Assembly (NCBI GenBank): GCA_963205525.1
Contig: CAUJJP010000231.1
Coordinates: 1 to 9,549, forward strand
Length of the DNA: 9,549 nt
DNA from: Pseudomonadota bacterium
GTDB lineage: Bacteria; Pseudomonadota; Gammaproteobacteria; Burkholderiales; Burkholderiaceae
Reading direction: 5' to 3'
Positions 84-9,502 of the stretch are shown piece after piece. Position 1 is the first letter of the stretch; each line of letters opens with the position of its first letter. The notes under the pieces were generated by a model. That model was not told the origin of the DNA. It did not search any database and saw only the letters and a program-made list of their open reading frames with translations. The position numbers and the translations under genes are program-made.

Positions 84-96
84 GCCCGCCATTATA
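84..96 (-). promoter_or_regulatory. Probable tRNA-Phe promoter: consensus -10 box and GC-rich discriminator
   Basis: On the minus strand TATAAT (96 to 91) is a perfect sigma-70 -10 hexamer. It is followed by GGCGGGC, a GC-rich discriminator of the kind found at stringently controlled stable-RNA promoters. Transcription would begin about 6 nt before the tRNA 5' end. The box overlaps the last sense codon (ATA) and the TAA stop of the response-regulator gene. I found no good -35; the best is CTCACG, 3 of 6 matches at 19 bp spacing. Activity is inferred. Confidence 0.6.
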
Positions 97-766
97 TGCC
101 ACTGCGCTTGTTGCGCGTGAGGTCCACGCCCAGCTGCTTGAGCTTGCGGTACAGGTGGGTGCGCTCCAGGCCGGTCTTCTCGGCCACGCGCGTCATGGAG
201 CCGCCTTCGCGCGCGAGGTGGAACTCGAAGTAGCTCTTTTCGAAGGCGTCGCGCGCCTCGCGCAGCGGACGATCGAGGTCAAAGCTCTGTTGCGCCTGCG
301 GCCCGATCGGCAGCGCCGCGGGCGGGGCCAGTGCATCCGGCAATGCGGGCTGCCCGGGGCTGGGCAGGCTTGCCTCGTGCGGGTTGCCGCCGTTGCGTGC
401 GCCGGGTCGCGACAGGCCTTGTTCCACCGCGCGCAGCAGCTTCTGCAGCGTGATGGGCTTTTCCAGGAAGGCGATGGCACCGAACTTGGTCGCCTCGACC
501 GCGGTGTCTATGGTGCCGTGCCCGCTCATCATGATGACCGGCATCGTGAGCATGCCGCCGGCGCCCCATTCCTTGAGCAGGGTGATGCCGTCGACGTCGG
601 GCATCCAGATGTCCAGCAGCACGAGGTCGGGCTTCATGCGCTCGCGCACGGCGCGCGCCTGGGCGGCGTTGTCCGCCAGTTCGACGGTGTGTCCTTCGTC
701 GGTGAGGATTTCCGACAGCAGGGCGCGGATGCCGAGTTCGTCGTCGACTACAAGAATGATGGCCAT
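92..766 (-). CDS. Response regulator, NtrX-like receiver plus Fis-type HTH, no AAA+ domain
   Basis: A 224-residue DNA-binding response regulator, presumed partner of the NtrY-like kinase encoded 28 bp upstream. The receiver domain spans about residues 1-118. It has the acidic pocket D8/D9, phosphoacceptor D52 in LLDIWMP, S81 in MMSGHG and K103 in the EKP motif. A Pro/Ala/Gly-rich linker covers about 119-161. A Fis-type helix-turn-helix covers about 165-215, with ERTHLYRKLKQLG at its recognition end, closely resembling NtrX. Canonical NtrX is roughly twice as long, with a sigma-54-interacting AAA+ ATPase where this protein has only the linker. It should therefore bind DNA but not remodel sigma-54 polymerase, as in the ActR/RegA layout. 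ATG at 766 is the only possible early start; a GGAG lies 11 bp upstream (781-778). The stop is TAA, while every other gene here ends in TGA. Function as a nitrogen or redox regulator is inferred. Confidence 0.93.
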   Translation of the reverse strand: MAIILVVDDELGIRALLSEILTDEGHTVELADNAAQARAVRERMKPDLVLLDIWMPDVDGITLLKEWGAGGMLTMPVIMMSGHGTIDTAVEATKFGAIAFLEKPITLQKLLRAVEQGLSRPGARNGGNPHEASLPSPGQPALPDALAPPAALPIGPQAQQSFDLDRPLREARDAFEKSYFEFHLAREGGSMTRVAEKTGLERTHLYRKLKQLGVDLTRNKRSGI

Positions 767-794
767 CCGGCGGCGGTCTCCGGGACGTGTGAAC

Positions 795-3092
795 TCAGCG
801 CGGCGTGCGCTCGCTGGGGGCGGGCAGCGTCTGCAATGGGGCGCCCGCTTGCGCAGGCGGCGGTGCGGACGCGAAATCCGAAAATGATAACGAAACCCGC
901 GCCCCGCAGACCGGGCGGTCGGGATCGTCGCCTTCGTGCAGGTTGGCCACGCGCACGCGGGCGCGGTGCTCGTCGGCGATCTTCTTCACCACCGCCAGCC
1001 CGAGGCCGGTGCCCTTGGCCTTGGTGGTGACATAGGGCTCGAAGGCGCGCTGCAACACGTGCGGGGCAAAGCCGGGGCCGTTGTCCAGCACCGTCAGGCG
1101 CACCGCGCGCAGGGCGCCGTCCTCGCCGCGCGCGGCCGAGGTCTGGAGCGTGACGCGGCCGTCGGGCTGCTCGGCGACGGCGTCGAGCGCGTTCTGCACC
1201 AGGTTGTGTATGACCTGTCGCAACTGGGTGGCGTCACCCTGGATCGCGGGCAGTTCGGTGGCCAGGTCGGCATGCAGGCGGCCCTGCTCGACGGCGTCGC
1301 CGTACAGGCCCAGCACTTCGCCGGCGAGCGCGCTGAGCGCCAGCGGCTGCGGCTGCGCGGCGGCAAGCCGGGCGTAGTCGCGGAACTCGTTGACCAGCTG
1401 CAGCAAGGCCTGGACCTGGCTCACGATGGTGGCCACGGAACGCTCCAGCAGCGCGCGGTCGGTGCCTTCGAGGCGGGATTCGAGCTTGTGCTGCAGCCGC
1501 TCGGCGGAGAGCTGGATCGGGGTGAGCGGGTTCTTGATCTCGTGCGCGAGCCGGCGCGCCACCTCGGCCCAGGCCTGTGCGCGCTGCGCGGACACGACTT
1601 CGGTGATGTCGTCGAACACCAGCAGCCTGGCCTCGCCCGGCAGCATGGCGCCGCGCAGCACGATGGTCTGCAGCTCGGGGCCGGCGCGGCGGTCGATGGC
1701 GTCCTGCCAGTGCTCGCGCTCGCCGGCCTCGGGGCTGTTGACGAGGAGCTCGAAACGCTGCTCGACGAGGCCAGCGAAGTCCTGCAGTTCGGGCCGCTCG
1801 GCCAGTCTTTGTCCGCTCCAGGCCGACAAGGGCAGGCGCAGGATGCGCGTGGCGCCCGGGTTCACGCTGTCGATGCGGCCTTCGCGGTCGAACAGGATGA
1901 CGCCGGCACTCAGGTTGTCGAGGATGGTCTGCAGGCGCGCGCGCGCGCCCTCGAGCTGGCGCACGCCGCGCTGGACCTCGGCACGCGCTTCGGCCAGCTG
2001 CTGGGTCATGTCGGCAAAGCTGCGCGTGAGGCCGCCGAGCTCGTCGCGGCTGGCGAACACCGGCTTGGCGGTGAGGTCGCCGGCCGCCACCTGGCGCACG
2101 CCGTCGGCCAGCAGCAGCAGCGGCTTGACGAGCTGGATGCCCAGCAGCAGCGCCAGCAGCACGGCACCGAAGACCGAGAGCATGAGGGCCAGGGTCAGGG
2201 TGCCGATGTACATCCGGCGCAGGCCGTCGCGCGCCAGCGCGCGCTGCTGGTACTCGCTGTATGCCGCCTGCACCGCCAGCGCGTTGACCGCCAGCGTGCG
2301 CGCCAGCGGCAGGGTCACCATCAGGTAGCGCGGCTCGCCGTCGCGCAGGCTGATCTCGCTGCTGGGCAGCACCACCAGCGCGCGCAGGTGTGGCGCCGCG
2401 CTGGCCGTCGGTGCGAGCGATTCCTCGTCGAGGTTCTCGATCTGGGTCGCGCTGCCGGCGCTGCGCGCCTGGCGCAGCAAGGCGTTGCCGGGTCGATCGG
2501 GGGCGATGGAGCTTGCGCCCACGCCGGCGCTGGCCAGCACCTGGCCACCGGCGCCGACCACCGACACCTCGCGCGCGGCGAGCTCGCTGCGCAGCCGCTC
2601 CAGTGCCAGTGGCAGGGTGGACTGGCGCTCGTCGGCCAGGCGTTCGGCGGCCAGCGCGGTCTTGCCGGCGAGGTCGGCGCCCAGCGCCTCCAGCGTGCTG
2701 CGCCCCAGGCCGAGGCCGGCGTCCAGGGCGCTGGCCACGCGCACGTCGAACCAGGCCTCGATGCTGCGCGCGACGAACTGGTAGGAGACGGTGTAGATCA
2801 GCAAGCCCGGCAGCAGGCCGACGACGGCGAAGATGCCGGCCAGCTTGATGAGCAGCCGGGTGCCGAACTTGCCGCGCCGCAGGCGCACCGCCAGCCGCGC
2901 CGCCGCCGCGCCCAGCACCAGCAGCAGCAGCGCCGCCACCGCGGCATTGACCCAGAACAGCCAGACGAAGTGGCGCTCGTAGAACTCGCCGCCATGGCTG
3001 GCCAGCGAGAGCACGAAAACCAGCACCAGCGCCACCCCGCTGAGCGCCACCAGGCCGACGAACCAGGTCCAGCGGTTGGACGCGCGGCTCAC
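795..3092 (-). CDS. ntrY: NtrY-like sensor histidine kinase
   Basis: Inner-membrane histidine kinase of 765 residues. Membrane segments are seen at about 11-31, 42-65, 81-101 and 296-321, with a probable periplasmic sensor region at about 105-290. A HAMP domain (about 318-372) follows, then a PAS domain (about 383-500, starting near TILDNLSAGVILFD). The HisKA domain has phosphoacceptor H517 in RRLAHEIKNPLTP, the NtrY-type H box. The ATPase has an N box with N634, a G1 box DNGPGF (670-675), an F box FEPYVTTK and a G2 box GTGLGL (694-699). The start is GTG at 3092, whose GTGA overlaps the TGA of the DUF4390 gene; AAGG lies 10 bp upstream. The frame stays open far upstream, but that part is Arg/Ala-rich antisense of the DUF4390 gene in another frame and is not plausible protein. 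Residues 709-712 read HRAR where relatives usually have HGGR. A Pro/Ala-rich tail (about 742-765) ends the protein. Signal and target genes are unknown. Confidence 0.95.
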   Translation of the reverse strand: MSRASNRWTWFVGLVALSGVALVLVFVLSLASHGGEFYERHFVWLFWVNAAVAALLLLVLGAAAARLAVRLRRGKFGTRLLIKLAGIFAVVGLLPGLLIYTVSYQFVARSIEAWFDVRVASALDAGLGLGRSTLEALGADLAGKTALAAERLADERQSTLPLALERLRSELAAREVSVVGAGGQVLASAGVGASSIAPDRPGNALLRQARSAGSATQIENLDEESLAPTASAAPHLRALVVLPSSEISLRDGEPRYLMVTLPLARTLAVNALAVQAAYSEYQQRALARDGLRRMYIGTLTLALMLSVFGAVLLALLLGIQLVKPLLLLADGVRQVAAGDLTAKPVFASRDELGGLTRSFADMTQQLAEARAEVQRGVRQLEGARARLQTILDNLSAGVILFDREGRIDSVNPGATRILRLPLSAWSGQRLAERPELQDFAGLVEQRFELLVNSPEAGEREHWQDAIDRRAGPELQTIVLRGAMLPGEARLLVFDDITEVVSAQRAQAWAEVARRLAHEIKNPLTPIQLSAERLQHKLESRLEGTDRALLERSVATIVSQVQALLQLVNEFRDYARLAAAQPQPLALSALAGEVLGLYGDAVEQGRLHADLATELPAIQGDATQLRQVIHNLVQNALDAVAEQPDGRVTLQTSAARGEDGALRAVRLTVLDNGPGFAPHVLQRAFEPYVTTKAKGTGLGLAVVKKIADEHRARVRVANLHEGDDPDRPVCGARVSLSFSDFASAPPPAQAGAPLQTLPAPSERTPR

Positions 3093-3649
3093 GGCGCGGG
3101 AACCTTCAGCTCGCGCTCGACGTTCAGCTGCCAGTCCGACGAACCGGGCAGCACGATCTGCATCGGCCTCGGCAGCTGGTCGGTGTCGAGCCGGTACTCG
3201 AACTCGACGTAGTCGCCCTCGGCCGCGAGCAGGGCGAGATCGCAGATGCGCCAGCCGGCGCTGGCCGAGAGCGCCGCCAGCGCGTCGGGCAGGGCGTCGT
3301 GGCTTTGCGAGAGCGCGCCCAGGCTGACGCGCCAGCTCGCGGTGAGCGGCTGGAAAGCGAGCCGCCAGCTGCGGTGCACGCGTGCGATGCGCTCGTCGCG
3401 CCAGTACCAGCGTCGACGACGCACGGTGGCGCCGGCCACGAAGTACACCGGCATGCCGCTGAGCAAGGCGTCCTCGACCGCGCGCGGCAGCTGCAGCCGG
3501 ACCGCGAAGTCCAGCAGCAGCGCGTCGCTGCCGCGGCGCAGGGACAGCGAGGACAGCGCGGCGCTTTGCGCCCAGGCCGCCCGTGGCGCACCGGCCCCGA
3601 GCCACCAGGGCCCGAGCAGCAGGCCGTGCAGCAGGTGGCGGCGGCGCAT
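3089..3649 (-). CDS. DUF4390 family protein, probably periplasmic
   Basis: A 186-residue protein of the DUF4390 family, function unknown. Residues 1-27 look like a signal peptide: an Arg-rich start (MRRRHLL), a hydrophobic core, and a possible cleavage site after AWA. An RRxLL-like start makes Tat export conceivable, but a Sec signal is at least as likely. The mature part has the alternating beta pattern I associate with the family, including LLLDFAVRLQLPRAVEDAL and a basic-aromatic stretch RRRRWYWRDE. The ATG is 9 bp after the rsmB stop with only a weak TGAG upstream, so its translation is probably coupled to rsmB. Its TGA stop overlaps the GTG start of the ntrY-like gene by 4 bp. The steady link with NtrY/NtrX suggests a role alongside the kinase, perhaps on the periplasmic side; that is inference. 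Confidence 0.88.
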   Translation of the reverse strand: MRRRHLLHGLLLGPWWLGAGAPRAAWAQSAALSSLSLRRGSDALLLDFAVRLQLPRAVEDALLSGMPVYFVAGATVRRRRWYWRDERIARVHRSWRLAFQPLTASWRVSLGALSQSHDALPDALAALSASAGWRICDLALLAAEGDYVEFEYRLDTDQLPRPMQIVLPGSSDWQLNVERELKVPAP

Positions 3650-3658
3650 GTCAAAGGC

Positions 3659-4990
3659 TCAGATGCGGTGCAACAAGGCGTAGAAAAAGCCGTCTTCCGG
3701 CGCCGCCCCATTGTCGGCCAGGTCGGCCAGGGGCAGCAGGTGACCGGGGGCGGCCGGGTCCAGGCGCAGTGTGTCGGCGCCCTGGCGTTGCACAAACGCG
3801 TCGATCTGCTGTGCGCCCTCGGCCTTGAACAGCGAGCAGGTGGCGTACAGCAGCCGCCCGCCCGGGGCCAGCAGCGGCCACAGGGCGTCCAGCAGCTGGG
3901 CCTGCACGCGCACCAGCTGGTGCAGGTCTTCCGGGCGGCGCAGCCAGCGGATGTCGGGGTGGCGGCGCACGATGCCGGAGGCGGTGCAGGGCGCATCGAG
4001 CAAGATGGCGTCGAAGGGCCGGCCGTCCCACCAGCGCGCCGGGTCGCGCGCATCGGCGGCCAGCAGCTGCACACCGGGCCCGGCGAGCTGCAGGCGCTGC
4101 AGCGTCTCCTGCACCCGCAGCAGGCGCTGCGAGTCGCTGTCCAGCGCCAGCAGTTCCAGGTCCGGGCGCAGTTCCAGCAGATGGGCGGTCTTGCCGCCCG
4201 GGGCGGCGCAGGCGTCGAGCACGCGTGCGCCCTCGCGCAGCGGCTCGCCGCCCAGCAGCAGGGGCGCCGCACGCTGCGCCGCCGCGTCCTGGACCGAGAC
4301 ATCGCCGGCCGCAAATCCCGGCAGCACCGTCACCGGGCTGGGCCGGGCGAGCACCACACCCTGGCTGGTGCCGCCCGCCTGCGCCAGGGCGCGCGCCTGG
4401 ATGCCATGGCTGGCCAGGCGCTCCAGATAGGTCGCGGCGTCCAGCCGGCGTGCGTTCACGCGCAGCGTCATCGGCGGGTGCAGGTTGGCCTGGCGCAGCA
4501 GCGGCTGCCAGTGCGCCGGCCAGTCCTGGCGCACGCGTTCTATCCACCACGCCGGGTGGCCCCAGGCGGCCTCGGGCGCGTGCATGGCCTGCGCGACCAG
4601 GGCTTCGCGCTCGCGGATGAAGCGGCGCAGCACGGCATTGATGAAGCCGGCGGCGGCCGGCGTGCGGTGGCGCGCCGCGGCCACCGCCTGGTCGACCAGG
4701 GTGTGGTCCGGGTAGGGTGCGTCCTCGCCGGTCGGCCACAGGAGGGCAAGCGCCGACACCAGCAGCGCGTCCACGTTGGGCGGCGGTGTCTTGGGCACGC
4801 AGATCGTGCGCAGCTGCTGCGCGCCGCCGAGCCAGCGCAGGACGTGAAAGCTCAGCGCCTGCACGCCGGGGCGGGCATCCGCGGCCACGCGGGCGAGCTG
4901 GTCGTTGAGCGAGCGGCCGGCCTGCACCGCCTGCACGGCGTCGGCGGTCAGGTCCAGCAGGCGCTGCAGCGGGGGCGAACGCGGTTCCAC
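3659..4990 (-). CDS. rsmB: 16S rRNA m5C967 methyltransferase RsmB
   Basis: 443-residue SAM-dependent enzyme that in E. coli methylates C967 of 16S rRNA. Residues about 8-140 form the NusB-like RNA-binding domain (FINAVLRRF at 116-124). The Rossmann methyltransferase domain starts near 225. Motif I is LDACAAPGGKTAHLLEL (about 258-274). LLDAPCTASG carries C335, which corresponds to the Cys that assists product release. YATCSLF carries C385, which corresponds to the catalytic nucleophile. These sit 10 residues after E. coli C325 and C375. The C terminus has the usual DGFFYALL. The start is GTG at 4990: an in-frame TAG at 5002-5000 rules out any start further upstream, and the next ATG is far inside the conserved region. 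No Shine-Dalgarno sequence precedes it. It heads the minus-strand operon and diverges from folE. Confidence 0.96.
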   Translation of the reverse strand: MEPRSPPLQRLLDLTADAVQAVQAGRSLNDQLARVAADARPGVQALSFHVLRWLGGAQQLRTICVPKTPPPNVDALLVSALALLWPTGEDAPYPDHTLVDQAVAAARHRTPAAAGFINAVLRRFIREREALVAQAMHAPEAAWGHPAWWIERVRQDWPAHWQPLLRQANLHPPMTLRVNARRLDAATYLERLASHGIQARALAQAGGTSQGVVLARPSPVTVLPGFAAGDVSVQDAAAQRAAPLLLGGEPLREGARVLDACAAPGGKTAHLLELRPDLELLALDSDSQRLLRVQETLQRLQLAGPGVQLLAADARDPARWWDGRPFDAILLDAPCTASGIVRRHPDIRWLRRPEDLHQLVRVQAQLLDALWPLLAPGGRLLYATCSLFKAEGAQQIDAFVQRQGADTLRLDPAAPGHLLPLADLADNGAAPEDGFFYALLHRI

Positions 4991-5039: not shown

Positions 5040-5057
5040 AATGCGCAGCGCCACCCT

Positions 5058-5061
5058 GGAG
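5058..5061 (+). promoter_or_regulatory. Ribosome binding site of folE
   Basis: GGAG lies 6 bp before ATG 5068. An in-frame ATG at 5041 would extend the protein by nine residues, but I saw no clear Shine-Dalgarno sequence before it. The site therefore favours 5068. Confidence 0.7.
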
Positions 5062-5067
5062 CCGCCC

Positions 5068-5829
5068 ATGAACAGCAAGCCCGCCCTGAGCAAGGTGCCC
5101 GACCCAGCGCCCGCGCGGCCGGTGCTGGGCGCGGACGAACTCGCCGCCCTGCCCGCTTCCGAGCGCGTGCGCTACCGGCTGCTGGCGGCCGGCCGGCGCT
5201 TCCATGCCAACGACAACATCGCCGAGTTCCTGCGCGAGGGCGAGCTCGGCGAGCTCGAGGCCGAGGTGCGCCAGAAGGTGCAGGCGCTGCTGGAGTCGCT
5301 GGTGATCGACACCGCGAGCGACCACAACACGAACGAGACCGCCAAACGGGTGGCGCGCATGTACCTGGGCGAGGTGTTCCGCGGCCGCTTCCACCCCATG
5401 CCTGCGGTGACCGAGTTCCCGAACGCCGAGCGCCTGAACGAGCTGATGATCGTCGGCCCGATCACCGTGCGCAGCGCCTGCAGCCACCACCTGTGCCCGA
5501 TCTTCGGCCGCGTCTGGATCGGACTCCTGCCCAACGAGCACAGCAACCTGATCGGTCTGTCCAAGTACGCGCGCATCTGCGACTGGATCATGAGCCGGCC
5601 GCAGATCCAGGAGGAGGCGGTCTCCATGCTGGCCGACGAGCTGCAGTCGCGCGTGCAGCCCGACGGGCTGGCGATCGTGATGGAGGCCGACCACTTCTGC
5701 ATGCACTGGCGCGGCGTGAAGGACACCGACAGCGCGATGGTCAACAGCGTGATGCGCGGCGCCTTCCTGAAGAACCCCGACCTGCGGCGCGAGTTCCTCG
5801 CCCTGCTGCCGCGCAAGGCCGCCGCCTGA
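5068..5829 (+). CDS. folE: GTP cyclohydrolase I (type IA)
   Basis: 253-residue cytosolic enzyme that converts GTP to 7,8-dihydroneopterin triphosphate, the first step towards tetrahydrofolate and other pterins. The zinc ligands correspond to C138, H141 and C211, and H140 is the catalytic His (CSHH at 138-141). Other active-site residues match E. coli FolE: S165/K166 in GLSK, R169, Q181/E182 in IQEE, H209, and R215 in HWRG. The sequence around these is divergent from E. coli: HLCPIFG where E. coli has HFVTIDG, and CMHWRGVKD near the C terminus. It seems to belong to a separate FolE subgroup but should be active. The N-terminal 35 or so residues are Ala/Pro-rich and unlike the core. Its stop is followed immediately by the ribosome binding site of the BLUF gene, so the two are probably co-transcribed. 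Confidence 0.95.
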   Translation: MNSKPALSKVPDPAPARPVLGADELAALPASERVRYRLLAAGRRFHANDNIAEFLREGELGELEAEVRQKVQALLESLVIDTASDHNTNETAKRVARMYLGEVFRGRFHPMPAVTEFPNAERLNELMIVGPITVRSACSHHLCPIFGRVWIGLLPNEHSNLIGLSKYARICDWIMSRPQIQEEAVSMLADELQSRVQPDGLAIVMEADHFCMHWRGVKDTDSAMVNSVMRGAFLKNPDLRREFLALLPRKAAA

Positions 5830-5835
5830 AGGGAG
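5830..5835 (+). promoter_or_regulatory. Ribosome binding site of the BLUF gene
   Basis: AGGGAG begins on the base after the folE TGA. It lies 6 bp before ATG 5842 and directly abuts ATG 5836, which is too close. It therefore selects 5842 as the start. Confidence 0.75.
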
Positions 5836-5841
5836 ATGACG

Positions 5842-6267
5842 ATGCTCGTGCGACTGATGTTTGCCAGCCGTGCCGTCCCCGGCCTGGGCCAGGAGGAACT
5901 GGCCGCGCTGCTGCGCATGGCCAGGGCGCGCAATGCCCAGCACGGCATCACCGGCGTGCTGTGCCATTCCGAAGGGGTGTTCATGCAGGTGATAGAGGGC
6001 GGGCGCAGCGCCGTCAACCACCTGTACAACCGCATCGCGGCCGACCCGCGCCACACCCGGGTCGAGCTGCTGAGCTACCAGGAGATCGCCGAGCGCCGCT
6101 TCGCCGGCTGGGCGATGGGGCTGGTGAACATGGCGCGCGTGAACCGCGCCCTGCTGCTGAAGTACTCGGCCACCACCACGCTGGACCCGCACGCGGTCTC
6201 GGGCGCGGTGTCGATGGCGCTGTTCGACGAGCTGGTGGCCACGGCCTCGGTGGACTGCGGGTCCTGA
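5842..6267 (+). CDS. Stand-alone BLUF-domain protein with Tyr-to-Phe change at the photoactive site
   Basis: 141-residue short BLUF protein, PixD-like. BLUF domains bind FAD and sense blue light. Alignment by eye to Synechocystis PixD (Slr1694) gives a continuous match: RLMFASRAVPG to RLIYSSQGIPN, NAQHGITGVLC to NPANGITGLLC, FMQVIEG to FLQVLEG, WAM to WSM, and LLLKYSATTTL to LVLKYSGFTTL. N31, Q49, W90 and M92 correspond to conserved flavin-pocket residues. The essential Tyr (Y8 in PixD, Y21 in AppA) is F7, encoded by TTT. The C-terminal part (about 100-135) should form the two helices seen in PixD-type proteins, so it probably works through protein contacts; there is no output domain. The start at 5842 is chosen from the ribosome binding site; ATG 5836 would add two residues. 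The gap to folE is 12 bp. Whether it binds flavin or responds to light is unknown. Confidence 0.92.
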   Translation: MLVRLMFASRAVPGLGQEELAALLRMARARNAQHGITGVLCHSEGVFMQVIEGGRSAVNHLYNRIAADPRHTRVELLSYQEIAERRFAGWAMGLVNMARVNRALLLKYSATTTLDPHAVSGAVSMALFDELVATASVDCGS

Positions 6268-6334
6268 TCCGGCGTCGGCGTGCGGCCACGCGTAAACCCG
6301 GGTGACATGGTCAGGGTCGATTCCTACATTCGTT

Positions 6335-6362
6335 CGTGCTTATATCCAGATGGACGAGCACG
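6335..6362 (+). promoter_or_regulatory. Candidate sox promoter and dyad upstream of soxC
   Basis: This is an AT-rich patch in a GC-rich 115-bp gap. TTATAT (6340-6345) or TATATC (6341-6346) could serve as a -10 box; the -35 is poor (TCGATT at 6317-6322, 17 bp spacing). The patch lies inside a dyad: CGTGCT (6335-6340) with AGCACG (6357-6362), and inner arms TCCA (6345-6348) with TGGA (6351-6354). A repressor bound here would cover the -10 and transcription start. ArsR-type SoxR is a known sox repressor in other bacteria, but its gene is not in this window. Alternatively the dyad is a leader RNA hairpin. Confidence 0.35.
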
Positions 6363-6370
6363 GCGCGCAC

Positions 6371-6376
6371 AGGAGA
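6371..6376 (+). promoter_or_regulatory. Ribosome binding site of soxC selecting a TTG start
   Basis: AGGAGA lies 6 bp before TTG 6383. The in-frame ATG at 6350 has no Shine-Dalgarno sequence, and its 11 extra residues would be read from the dyad region, so TTG is preferred. Confidence 0.7.
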
Positions 6377-6382
6377 GCTCCC

Positions 6383-7771
6383 TTGTCTGATCCCGGTTTC
6401 GATCCGACCCCTGCCCCGGGCCGCCTGCGCAAGGCCCCCGAGGGCTTCCTGGACCGCCAGGCGGTGGCCGAGGTCTGGCGCGAGGCCAAGGCCGGGCGCC
6501 GCGACTTCATCCGACGCGCCTTCGCCGCTGCGGCGGGTGCTGCAGCCGGCGGGGCGGCCCTGGCCCAGCCCAACCCGGTGCCCGCCGAAGGCGGCGACCC
6601 CCACATCCTGGAGTTGCCGGCGCACAGCACCGGGCTCGGGCAGCCGGTCGCCAGCGAGGGCTACGGCCGGCCCTCGCAGTACGAGGCCAATGTGCAGCGC
6701 CGGCCCAGCCCCGGGCTGACCCAGACCAGCCAGGCCAGCGTCAGCTTCACGCCGCTGCAAAGCCTGTTCGGCATCCTCACCCCGAGCGGGCTGCACTTCG
6801 AGCGCCACCACCAGGGCTGGTGGGACATCGATCCCAGCCGGCACCGGCTGATGGTCAACGGCTCGGACCCGACGATGCTCAAGACCCCCATGGTCTTCAC
6901 CATGGACGAGCTGATGCGGCTGCCCAGCGTGAGCCGCCTGCACTTCATCGAGTGCGGCGCCAACTCGGGCATGGAGTGGGGCAATGTCGCCGTGCCCACG
7001 GTGCAGTACACGCACGGCATGATCAGCTGCAGCGAGTTCACCGGCGTGCCGCTGCAGCTGCTGCTGCAGAGGTGCGGGGCCGACTTCAAGCGCGGGCGCT
7101 ACCTGCTGGCGGAGGGCGCCGACGGCTCCGGCATGACGCGCACCATCCCCATGGAACTGGTGGAGGACGGCTCGGTGATCGTCGCCTACGGGCAGAACGG
7201 CGAGATGCTGCGGCCGGAGAACGGCTACCCGCTGCGGCTGGTGGTGCCCGGCGTGCAGGGGGTGAGCTGGGTCAAGTACCTGCGCCGGATCGAGGTCGGC
7301 GACCAGCCCTGGGGCACCAAGGACGAGGCCATCCACTACATCGACCTCATGCCCGGCGGCCAGCACCGGCAGTACAGCAGCCTGCAGGAGTGCAAGAGCG
7401 TGGTCACCACGCCCTCCGGCGGCCAGGTGCTGCTGGACAAGGGCTACCACGCGATCAGCGGGCTGGCCTGGTCGGGGCGCGGCAAGATCCAGCGCGTGGA
7501 CGTGTCGGTGGACGGCGGACGCAACTGGCGCAGCGCCAGGCTGCAGACCCCGGTGCTGGACCGCTGCCTGACGCGCTTCAACATCGACTGGGTCTGGGAC
7601 GGCCGCCCGGCGCTGGTGCAAAGCCGCGCCATCGACGACACCGGCTATGTGCAGCCCACCTACAGTGAACTGCGCCGGGTGCGCGGCACGCGCTCGATCT
7701 ACCACAACCACTCGATCCAGACCTGGCTGGTGCAGGAAAGCGGGGAGGTGCGCAATGTCCAGCTGGCCTGA
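6383..7771 (+). CDS. soxC: Sulfur dehydrogenase molybdenum subunit SoxC
   Basis: 462-residue periplasmic molybdoprotein of the sulfite oxidase family. With SoxD it forms Sox(CD)2, which removes six electrons from the sulfane sulfur bound to SoxYZ and passes them to cytochrome c. A Tat signal is clear: GRRDFIRRAF (38-47) followed by an Ala/Gly-rich core ending ALAQ near residue 62, which fits export of a folded Moco enzyme. The catalytic domain contains FIECGANSGMEWG, with C191 as the expected molybdenum-ligating Cys. The C-terminal Mo-cofactor dimerisation domain covers about 315-440, including VDVSVDGGRNW. The Tat motif follows an unusually long polar n-region of about 37 residues. The start is a TTG with a strong AGGAGA; ATG 6350 is the alternative. 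Its end overlaps soxD by 17 bp. It lies 115 bp downstream of the BLUF gene, on the same strand. Confidence 0.95.
   Translation: MSDPGFDPTPAPGRLRKAPEGFLDRQAVAEVWREAKAGRRDFIRRAFAAAAGAAAGGAALAQPNPVPAEGGDPHILELPAHSTGLGQPVASEGYGRPSQYEANVQRRPSPGLTQTSQASVSFTPLQSLFGILTPSGLHFERHHQGWWDIDPSRHRLMVNGSDPTMLKTPMVFTMDELMRLPSVSRLHFIECGANSGMEWGNVAVPTVQYTHGMISCSEFTGVPLQLLLQRCGADFKRGRYLLAEGADGSGMTRTIPMELVEDGSVIVAYGQNGEMLRPENGYPLRLVVPGVQGVSWVKYLRRIEVGDQPWGTKDEAIHYIDLMPGGQHRQYSSLQECKSVVTTPSGGQVLLDKGYHAISGLAWSGRGKIQRVDVSVDGGRNWRSARLQTPVLDRCLTRFNIDWVWDGRPALVQSRAIDDTGYVQPTYSELRRVRGTRSIYHNHSIQTWLVQESGEVRNVQLA
7744..7748 (+). promoter_or_regulatory. Ribosome binding site of soxD inside soxC
   Basis: GGAGG lies 6 bp before ATG 7755, within the 3' end of soxC. 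It fixes the soxD start and implies coupled translation of the two subunits. Confidence 0.8.
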
Positions 7772-8870
7772 GTCGCGGCTCGCAGCGGCCGCCCTCATCG
7801 TCATCGGCGCGATCGGCATCTTAGGCCCCGCGCTCGCCCAGCCCTCCCCCGGCACCCACCCCGCCAGCTACCCCGGCATCGGCCGCCCGGCCACCGGCAA
7901 GGAGATCGCGGCCTGGGACATTGACGTGCGACCCGACTTCAAGGGCCTGCCCAAGGGCGCCGGCAGCGCCGAGAAGGGGATGCAGATCTGGGAGGACCAG
8001 TGCGCCTCCTGCCACGGCGTGTTCGGCGAGAGCAACCAGTTCTTCAGCCCGCTGGTCGGCGGCACCACGGCGCAGGACATCCGAAGCGGCCACGCGGCGC
8101 GACTGAACGATCCCGCCTACCCCGGCCGCACGACGATGATGAAGCTGCCCACGGTCTCGACCCTGTGGGACTACATCCGCCGCGCCATGCCCTGGACCGC
8201 GCCCAAGTCGCTGAGCGTGGACGAGGTCTATGCCGTCACCGCCTACCTGCTGAGCATGGCCGAGGTCGTGCCCGAGGACTTCGTGCTCAGCGACGCCAAC
8301 ATCGCCCAGGTCCAGCAGCGCCTGCCCAACCGGCTGGGCATGAGCACCGAGCACCACCTGTGGCCGGGCAAGGGCATGGGCGGCAAGCCGCCCGACGTGA
8401 AGAGCACGGCCTGCATGCGCGACTGCGCGGGCGAACCCAAGGTGGCGTCCTTCCTGCCCGATTTCGCGCGCAACGCGCACGGCAACCTGGCCGAGCAGAA
8501 CCGCATGGTCGGCAGCCAGGTCGGCACCGACACCACGCGGCCGGTCGACGCGCCGCACGAGCGCCCTGCCGCGCCAACAGCACCCGCAGCGCCCACCGCA
8601 CCCGGGACCGAAGGGCGGGCGCCGCTGGCCCTGCTCAACCAGCACGCCTGCACCGCCTGCCATGCGCTGGACAAGCCGCTGATCGGCCCCGCCTACGCCG
8701 AGATCGCACGCAAGTACGCCCCCCGCGCCGACCGCGAGGCCTACCTGGCCGGCCGGATCAGCGCCGGCGGCTCGGGCAGCTGGGGCGCGGTCGCGATGCC
8801 GGCGCAGCAGCTGCCGGCGGCCGACCTCGCCGCCATCGCCAGCTGGCTCGCCGCGGGCGCGCCACGCTGA
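7755..8870 (+). CDS. soxD: Sulfur dehydrogenase diheme cytochrome c subunit SoxD
   Basis: 371-residue periplasmic diheme c-type cytochrome, electron-transfer partner of SoxC. A Sec signal peptide covers about 1-29 (hydrophobic core about 9-24, cleavage near ALA-QP). The first heme site is CASCH (83-87) with a likely distal Met at M145 in AMPW. The second is CTACH (299-303) with a likely distal Met at M348 in AMPA. C220 and C224 (CMRDC) could form a disulfide between the two heme domains. An Ala/Pro/Thr-rich linker (about 270-286) joins the domains. Some diheme SoxD proteins carry both sites and others have lost the second; here both are intact. The start comes from the GGAGG site 6 bp upstream, and the gene overlaps soxC by 17 bp. 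The following gene, soxY, is 173 bp away with its own leader. Confidence 0.95.
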   Translation: MSSWPESRLAAAALIVIGAIGILGPALAQPSPGTHPASYPGIGRPATGKEIAAWDIDVRPDFKGLPKGAGSAEKGMQIWEDQCASCHGVFGESNQFFSPLVGGTTAQDIRSGHAARLNDPAYPGRTTMMKLPTVSTLWDYIRRAMPWTAPKSLSVDEVYAVTAYLLSMAEVVPEDFVLSDANIAQVQQRLPNRLGMSTEHHLWPGKGMGGKPPDVKSTACMRDCAGEPKVASFLPDFARNAHGNLAEQNRMVGSQVGTDTTRPVDAPHERPAAPTAPAAPTAPGTEGRAPLALLNQHACTACHALDKPLIGPAYAEIARKYAPRADREAYLAGRISAGGSGSWGAVAMPAQQLPAADLAAIASWLAAGAPR

Positions 8871-8913
8871 ACCGGCGCCGCCCGCATGCCTGCAGCCGCC
8901 CCGGTCGACCGCC

Positions 8914-8943
8914 GCGGCCGGCGCGCCCGAATGTCCCGGCCGC
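8914..8943 (+). repeat. Inverted repeat / hairpin between soxD and soxY
   Basis: GCGGCCGG (8914-8921) and CCGGCCGC (8936-8943) are perfect 8-bp GC-only arms around a 14-nt loop, 43 bp after the soxD stop. No T tract follows, so it is not a typical intrinsic terminator. It may protect the soxCD mRNA 3' end or set different levels for soxCD and soxY. Confidence 0.5.
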
Positions 8944-9031
8944 AGCGACGCACGCTGCGCTGCGCTAACCTGCTGCGGGTATGCACGGTTTCCGCGCCCC
9001 GCGAGATCGACCATCGTTGAGCCGAATTGAC

Positions 9032-9037
9032 AAGGAG
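9032..9037 (+). promoter_or_regulatory. Ribosome binding site of soxY
   Basis: AAGGAG lies 6 bp before ATG 9044 and decides against the in-frame ATG at 8981, which would place 21 residues before the Tat motif. Confidence 0.85.
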
Positions 9038-9043
9038 CAAGTC

Positions 9044-9502
9044 ATGACAACACGCCGTGAGGTCCTCGCGCACAGCGCCAGGGTGGCCGGCCTGCTCGCC
9101 GCCGCCGGCCTGCTGCCCGCTGCCGCACAGGCGGCCTGGAACGAGGCCGCGTTCTCCGCCAAGACCCTGGCCGAGGTGGTCAAGGCGCTCGGCGGCAGCG
9201 CGCCGGTCGAGAGCAAGGACGTCAGCATCACCGGCCCGGACATCGCCGAGAACGGCGCTGTGGTGCCGGTGGGCGCGGCCAGCAGCCTGCCTGGCGTGAA
9301 ACGACTGCTGCTGCTGGTGGAGAAGAACCCGAACGCGCTCGCTGCCGTGTTCGATGTCAGCGACAAGGTCGAGCCCAGCGTCGCCACCCGGGTCAAGATG
9401 GGCCAGTCCTCCAACGTCTACGCCGTGGCCATGCTCGCCGACGGCAAGGTCGCCTACGCCGGCAAGGAGATCAAAGTCACCCTAGGCGGCTGCGGTGGGT
9501 GA
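9044..9502 (+). CDS. soxY: Thiosulfate oxidation carrier protein SoxY
   Basis: 152-residue sulfur carrier subunit. In the periplasm, SoxYZ holds the sulfur intermediates as a thioadduct on the SoxY Cys near its C terminus, and SoxAX, SoxB and SoxCD act on them in turn. The defining C-terminal GGCGG motif is present, with C150 as the carrier Cys. The N terminus is a Tat signal (TRREVLAHS, R4/R5, Ala/Leu-rich core, likely cleavage near AQA-AW at residue 30). This suits SoxY, which is exported together with SoxZ, a partner that has no signal of its own. Length is normal for the family. The AAGGAG site defines the start. soxZ would be expected directly downstream, but the window ends 47 bp after this gene and that stretch is filled by a hairpin. 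Confidence 0.96.
   Translation: MTTRREVLAHSARVAGLLAAAGLLPAAAQAAWNEAAFSAKTLAEVVKALGGSAPVESKDVSITGPDIAENGAVVPVGAASSLPGVKRLLLLVEKNPNALAAVFDVSDKVEPSVATRVKMGQSSNVYAVAMLADGKVAYAGKEIKVTLGGCGG

Follow-up and report, generated by a model that had tools for sequence, protein, structure and literature searches.

A BLUF protein encoded directly downstream of the GTP cyclohydrolase I gene folE carries Phe at the site of the photoactive Tyr, and this exchange arose several times, independently, inside one orthologous folE-adjacent BLUF family. The gene lies in positions 1 to 9,549 of contig CAUJJP010000231.1 (assembly GCA_963205525.1, a Burkholderiaceae member of the Pseudomonadota), a 9,549-nt stretch referred to here as the window. 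The literature calls the photoactive BLUF Tyr strictly conserved and, among titles and the beginnings of abstracts in the open-licence literature, we found no report of a natural, recurrent Tyr-to-Phe variant of this otherwise known family.

The open reading frame at 5836–6267 encodes 143 residues from ATG 5836 or 141 residues from ATG 5842; the second start is favoured because most listed homologues begin there and the upstream AGGGAG fits it. The gene, its key codons and its upstream neighbour are as follows.

5842–6267, plus strand: PixD-type short BLUF protein of 141 residues, natural Tyr-to-Phe variant (open reading frame, profile and alignment)
5860–5862, plus strand: codon TTT, Phe7, at the photoactive Tyr site (PixD Tyr8; alignment)
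5932–5934, plus strand: codon AAT, Asn31 (PixD Asn32)
5986–5988, plus strand: codon CAG, Gln49 (PixD Gln50)
6109–6111, plus strand: codon TGG, Trp90 (PixD Trp91), alternative electron donor in published Tyr-to-Phe mutants
6115–6117, plus strand: codon ATG, Met92 (presumably PixD Met93)
5830–5835, plus strand: AGGGAG, likely ribosome-binding site for ATG 5842 (sequence inspection)
5041–5829, plus strand: folE, GTP cyclohydrolase I, 262 residues (PF01227, 146 bits; matches to GTP cyclohydrolase I structures in the PDB)

By profile and fold the window protein is a BLUF protein in which one defining photoreceptor residue is missing. It matched the BLUF profile PF04940 with 106.8 bits (cut-off 25) over positions 1–92 of 92, the full length of the family profile. 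Alignments to Tll0078 and Slr1694 ran without gaps through the first strand and placed their Tyr8 opposite Phe7, leaving strand 1 without the photoactive Tyr and the flavin-pocket residues Gln49 and Asn31 in place. This bears out the sequence-only reading, which had proposed a gapless alignment to PixD (Slr1694) around strand 1 and replacement of the photoactive Tyr by Phe7 with Asn31, Gln49, Trp90 and Met92 retained. An AlphaFold2 model built from 87 alignment rows (mean predicted local distance difference test score (pLDDT) 84.7; an earlier model from 28 rows, pLDDT 49, was discarded) is predicted to adopt the BLUF fold, matching 1x0p_E with an E value of 2.7e-15 and a template modelling score of 0.88, and it also matched PixD and the Y8F structures 8i98 and 3mzi, the last of which is titled 'pseudo-Signaling State'. 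In sequence, these two Y8F mutants aligned to the window protein about 1 bit higher than the wild types. They carry the identical substitution at the identical site, laboratory-made in their case and natural and recurrent here, whereas wild-type PixD (Slr1694 and Tll0078, likewise short BLUF proteins) has Tyr8. The partner of PixD is PixE (PMC5899715; this and the other papers cited by PMC number are drawn on in part), whereas the window BLUF is encoded beside folE; none of the nine window proteins scanned by profile was PixE-like, no search being aimed at PixE.

The Phe is not a sequencing error, because a separate cluster that is 91% identical (P0002; three members, ten contigs, read at the protein level) carries it as well as the window's own cluster (P0001; two member sequences, seven contigs). 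Together these make five member sequences and 17 contigs, which are not necessarily from independent samples, and additional Phe genes occur in six genomes of another genus. The two doubts attached to the sequence-only reading, that Phe might be present in this single sequence only or reflect an error at 5860–5862, are thereby removed, and we regard a sequencing or assembly error as having a negligible chance.

Across the folE-linked family the site holds Tyr in 357 rows, Phe in 20 and no third residue among 377 rows, made up of 240 listed proteins plus 137 further loci absent from that list (the distant loci L018–L020 were removed before counting). The set is non-random, both protein lists and one genus having been collected around Phe proteins, and 20/377 is not a frequency because many of the 20 Phe rows came from searches seeded with a Phe protein. 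With the window protein as query, the best 120 of 3,304 homologues comprised 118 Tyr proteins and two Phe proteins (P0001 and P0002); in the genus to which G334, the top-scoring genome found, belongs, the gene matched in 73 of 81 genomes, and the 30 best, which were read, all have Tyr. Near the window, Phe is the mark of a small clade. In the family of genome G001, 336/399 genomes matched with an E value of 1e-25 or lower (about seven only at the paralogue level), and all 109 places read in an even sample of that family (L021–L050 and L053–L131) have Tyr. A Phe-specific DNA pattern matched one of the 399 genomes of the family (G361, in which the BLUF gene likewise follows folE) and 0/399 genomes sampled evenly from the order, counts that are undercounts because the patterns miss some known loci (the Phe pattern recovers 6/7 known Phe loci, and the corresponding Tyr pattern 126/172 Tyr loci). 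With the G361 protein as query, 13 of the best 120 of 7,127 homologues have Phe. Among 29 genomes searched in its genus, 24 have the gene and six of these have Phe (G361, G402, G413, G415, G416 and G423). Phe is a rare state across the family but a common one in a single genus. The proposal that Phe might be fixed among homologues beside folE therefore holds in part: Phe recurs there, but as a rare state that has arisen several times. One Phe host is Comamonadaceae bacterium OH2545_COT-014, in which we take COT to mean canine oral taxon. Separately, G361 and G415 carry a second BLUF, the other four of the six Phe genomes having shown only the Phe BLUF, and locus L026 (G148) gave an orthologue match interrupted by a TGA in frame, which may mean a pseudogene or an error of assembly.

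The number of origins was assessed on trees built without the Tyr/Phe site: a FastTree phylogeny of all 377 rows and a careful tree of 64 rows (all 20 Phe rows, the nearest Tyr rows and 20 random loci). Both trees require eight changes at the site, a count that does not distinguish gain from loss, and six of these are forced by well-supported branches; 0% of 200 bootstrap trees had a single change. A single origin, with all 20 Phe rows as one clade, was rejected by the approximately unbiased (AU) test (p-AU 1.3e-7), as was one clade of the 18 Phe rows outside the window pair (p-AU 1.2e-5). Reversals may occur, because a Tyr group is nested in a Phe-rich clade. At the codon level, the seven Phe loci with DNA use TTT (five) and TTC (two), and the 163 Tyr loci use TAC (113) and TAT (50).

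In control BLUF proteins Tyr is nearly invariant, and the repeated swaps were found in the folE-linked family. Among Pseudomonadota controls, 98/349 genomes had a BLUF match; in 130 loci read from the stronger listed matches, some of them folE-linked orthologues, the 131 domains had the Tyr in 131, the Gln in 130, the Trp in 116 and the Met in 118. Bacteroidota control rows have Tyr in 27/28, with one gap, and a Burkholderiales paralogue (no folE lies in the 12 kb of locus L018) has Tyr in 119/120. The remaining row of the latter, P0319, is a diverged paralogous BLUF with Asn at the site, the only residue other than Tyr and Phe encountered. Phe was found in 0/279 control rows. Fisher tests of the 15/240 listed clusters with Phe against 0/279 controls (p 7e-6) or against 1/279 non-Tyr controls (p 1e-4) are biased, because both protein lists came from searches with Phe proteins and related sequences do not count as independent observations. 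Phe as a special property of the folE-linked family is not established, since the even sample is no different from the controls.

Further analysis concerned constraint on the Phe proteins. Asn31, Gln49, Trp90 and Met92 are each invariant in 360/360 rows (240 proteins and 120 loci, including the non-folE-linked L018–L020; 16 rows have Phe, P0121 and L051 among them being the same gene), and all four are intact in the eight Phe loci, which represent six genes. Uncorrected pairwise ratios of nonsynonymous to synonymous difference (pN/pS) were 0.19–0.55 for the 21 nearest Phe–Tyr pairs (seven Phe loci by three Tyr loci each) and had a 5–95% range of 0.11–0.49, with a median of 0.28, for the 163 nearest Tyr–Tyr pairs; 18 of the 21 Phe–Tyr pairs fell inside this range. 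The window BLUF pairs gave 0.38–0.42 and the FolE pairs of the window were alike (0.39–0.43). These rates indicate purifying selection on the Phe proteins, and there was no sign of relaxation across all Phe lineages, although pN/pS is raised in some of them. In 256 column/residue tests on six independent pairs, with the site itself as a check, no co-change with Phe was supported; the strongest other column was residue 138 in the ragged C terminus (mean 3.4 of 6). Ala91, Leu94 and Ile51, which set the window pair apart from its nearest Tyr relatives, were rejected as co-changes, being common family-wide (61, 94 and 106 of 360 rows, respectively).

We tentatively favour, at somewhat less than even confidence, a reading in which the window protein is a folE-linked, PixD-like BLUF flavoprotein that would have lost its canonical photocycle through the Tyr-to-Phe exchange and may be held in a constitutive, light-blind pseudo-signalling form. 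Judging from AppA, PixD and OaPAC mutants, the Phe protein would still bind flavin, form no red-shifted state and have its Trp90 in the inward, light-like position; its signalling would then be constitutive and would not depend on light. Its target might be FolE or a co-expressed product, and a regulator that responds to light in its Tyr forms may be frozen in one of its settings in the Phe lineages; both steps are guesses. In the published work, Phe mutants lack the reversible red shift that blue light normally causes (PMC7005313, PMC9486806), AppA Y21F/Y56F/W64F keeps its flavin but is photoinactive and fixed in a light-like state (PMC7005313), and the Trp-in form predominates in Tyr-to-Phe mutants of AppA, OaPAC and SyPixD (PMC10799861). 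Several points weigh against this reading. A long stem leads to the window pair (0.35 in the 64-row tree). Three pairs lie above the Tyr–Tyr 95% value of pN/pS (L151–L141, L154–L150 and L154–L152) and L154–L133 lies at its edge, making relaxed selection possible in some Phe lineages; relaxation after a recent swap could also be missed, because the pairs span time before and after it. N-terminal BlsA mutants, including Tyr7 to Ala (Ala rather than Phe), were insoluble (PMC6695109). Last, the family is mostly Tyr, so light switching is presumably useful if Phe does no more than lock the sensor.

The strongest competitor, which we consider less likely though still a serious contender, is that selection for light sensing was lost and Tyr drifted to Phe, the mildest change, leaving a structural or flavin-binding role beside FolE. 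Consistent with this, Phe is scattered and may revert, as the Tyr rows nested in the Phe-rich clade suggest; the oral-taxon name of one Phe host perhaps points to a dark habitat; pN/pS is raised in some Phe lineages (L154 and L151); no column reliably co-changes with Phe; and, because Phe in the even family sample (1/399 genomes) is as rare as in the controls (0/279 rows), nothing shows that it is favoured. However, all 20 of the 20 non-Tyr rows are Phe, although single-base changes of TAT or TAC also give His, Asn, Asp, Ser and Cys, the four pocket residues were never lost, and most Phe–Tyr pairs stay within the Tyr–Tyr range of pN/pS. The earlier proposal that loss by drift is less likely thus survives for decay of the gene, which is disfavoured because Phe is the sole non-Tyr residue in 377 rows, the pocket is invariant and pN/pS is well below 1; the possibility that selection for light sensing was lost is harder to set aside.

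A second alternative, unlikely but still a main rival, is a different photochemistry in which Trp90 reduces the excited flavin, giving a light- or redox-sensitive photoreduction switch. It draws on published mutants: OaPAC Y6F lacks photoactivity of the BLUF kind, yet irradiation yields fully reduced flavin, and bPAC Y7F yields the neutral semiquinone (PMC9486806). Invariance of Trp90 in the family, set against 116/131 in diverse Pseudomonadota BLUF domains, agrees with such a role, but Trp is equally invariant in the Tyr members and in the paralogue (120/120), and so need not be a preparation for Phe; moreover, no redox partner is evident among the annotated window genes. A normal BLUF photocycle reached by another route is very unlikely, nothing direct speaking for it, though the Phe lineages persist.

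Beyond the favoured reading of a light-blind, constitutive BLUF, a bolder and rather improbable extension is that folE-linked BLUF proteins are flavin-loaded rings that regulate GTP cyclohydrolase I as a bacterial functional counterpart of GFRP, with a pentameric face seated against the fivefold FolE decamer and the Tyr/Phe site acting as a repeatedly flipped evolutionary switch between light-tuned (Tyr) and constitutive (Phe) forms. Crystalline PixD consists of two stacked pentameric rings (PMC5899715), and two pentamers of GFRP, the regulator of animal GTP cyclohydrolase I, flank decameric GCH1 along its fivefold axis (PMC7750480). Since PixD rings and decameric GTP cyclohydrolase I are both fivefold, a direct BLUF–FolE complex may be guessed at; the likeness to GFRP is an analogy of pentamer rings, and no homology is claimed. 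If true, the folate supply of Burkholderiales would be linked to light. A parallel in kind is offered by natural LOV receptors without the conserved glutamine, likewise flavin photoreceptors lacking a residue held essential, which differ in fold and chemistry and include a natural member whose light response was measured (PMC9098866). Natural Phe forms and their close Tyr sisters are ready pairs for probing the role of the Tyr in living cells, and they also bear on whether a BLUF protein without a photocycle is useful. The tight link to folE provides a directly testable candidate target.

The product of folE is the first enzyme of folate synthesis. In the window the BLUF start lies 12 bases downstream of folE on the same strand, placing the gene in the folE-linked orthologue group, and the two genes probably form one transcription unit. 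In 181/181 loci that carry both genes, the BLUF gene follows folE and shares its strand (gap 1–263 bases, median 11), some of these loci being the same place counted twice; the loci without folE are the three distant ones, L018–L020. In 11/11 genomes checked, the BLUF-adjacent folE is the single match to PF01227, the only cyclohydrolase family searched. The same survey of titles and abstract beginnings in the open-licence literature gave no report joining BLUF with folE or GTP cyclohydrolase. Downstream of the BLUF gene, the window (6302–9502) holds matches to a molybdopterin oxidoreductase (SoxC-like), a cytochrome c (SoxD-like) and SoxY, a sulfur-oxidation cluster, and matches to at least one of these genes also lie near BLUF in L001/L024, L009/L047, L021, L023 and L050. 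On the minus strand, divergent from folE, positions 92–4990 encode an RsmB-type 16S rRNA methyltransferase, a DUF4390 protein, a sensor kinase and a response regulator, the last two of which we take to be NtrY-like and NtrX-like; the order of these genes is also seen in most of the longer Burkholderiales loci read.
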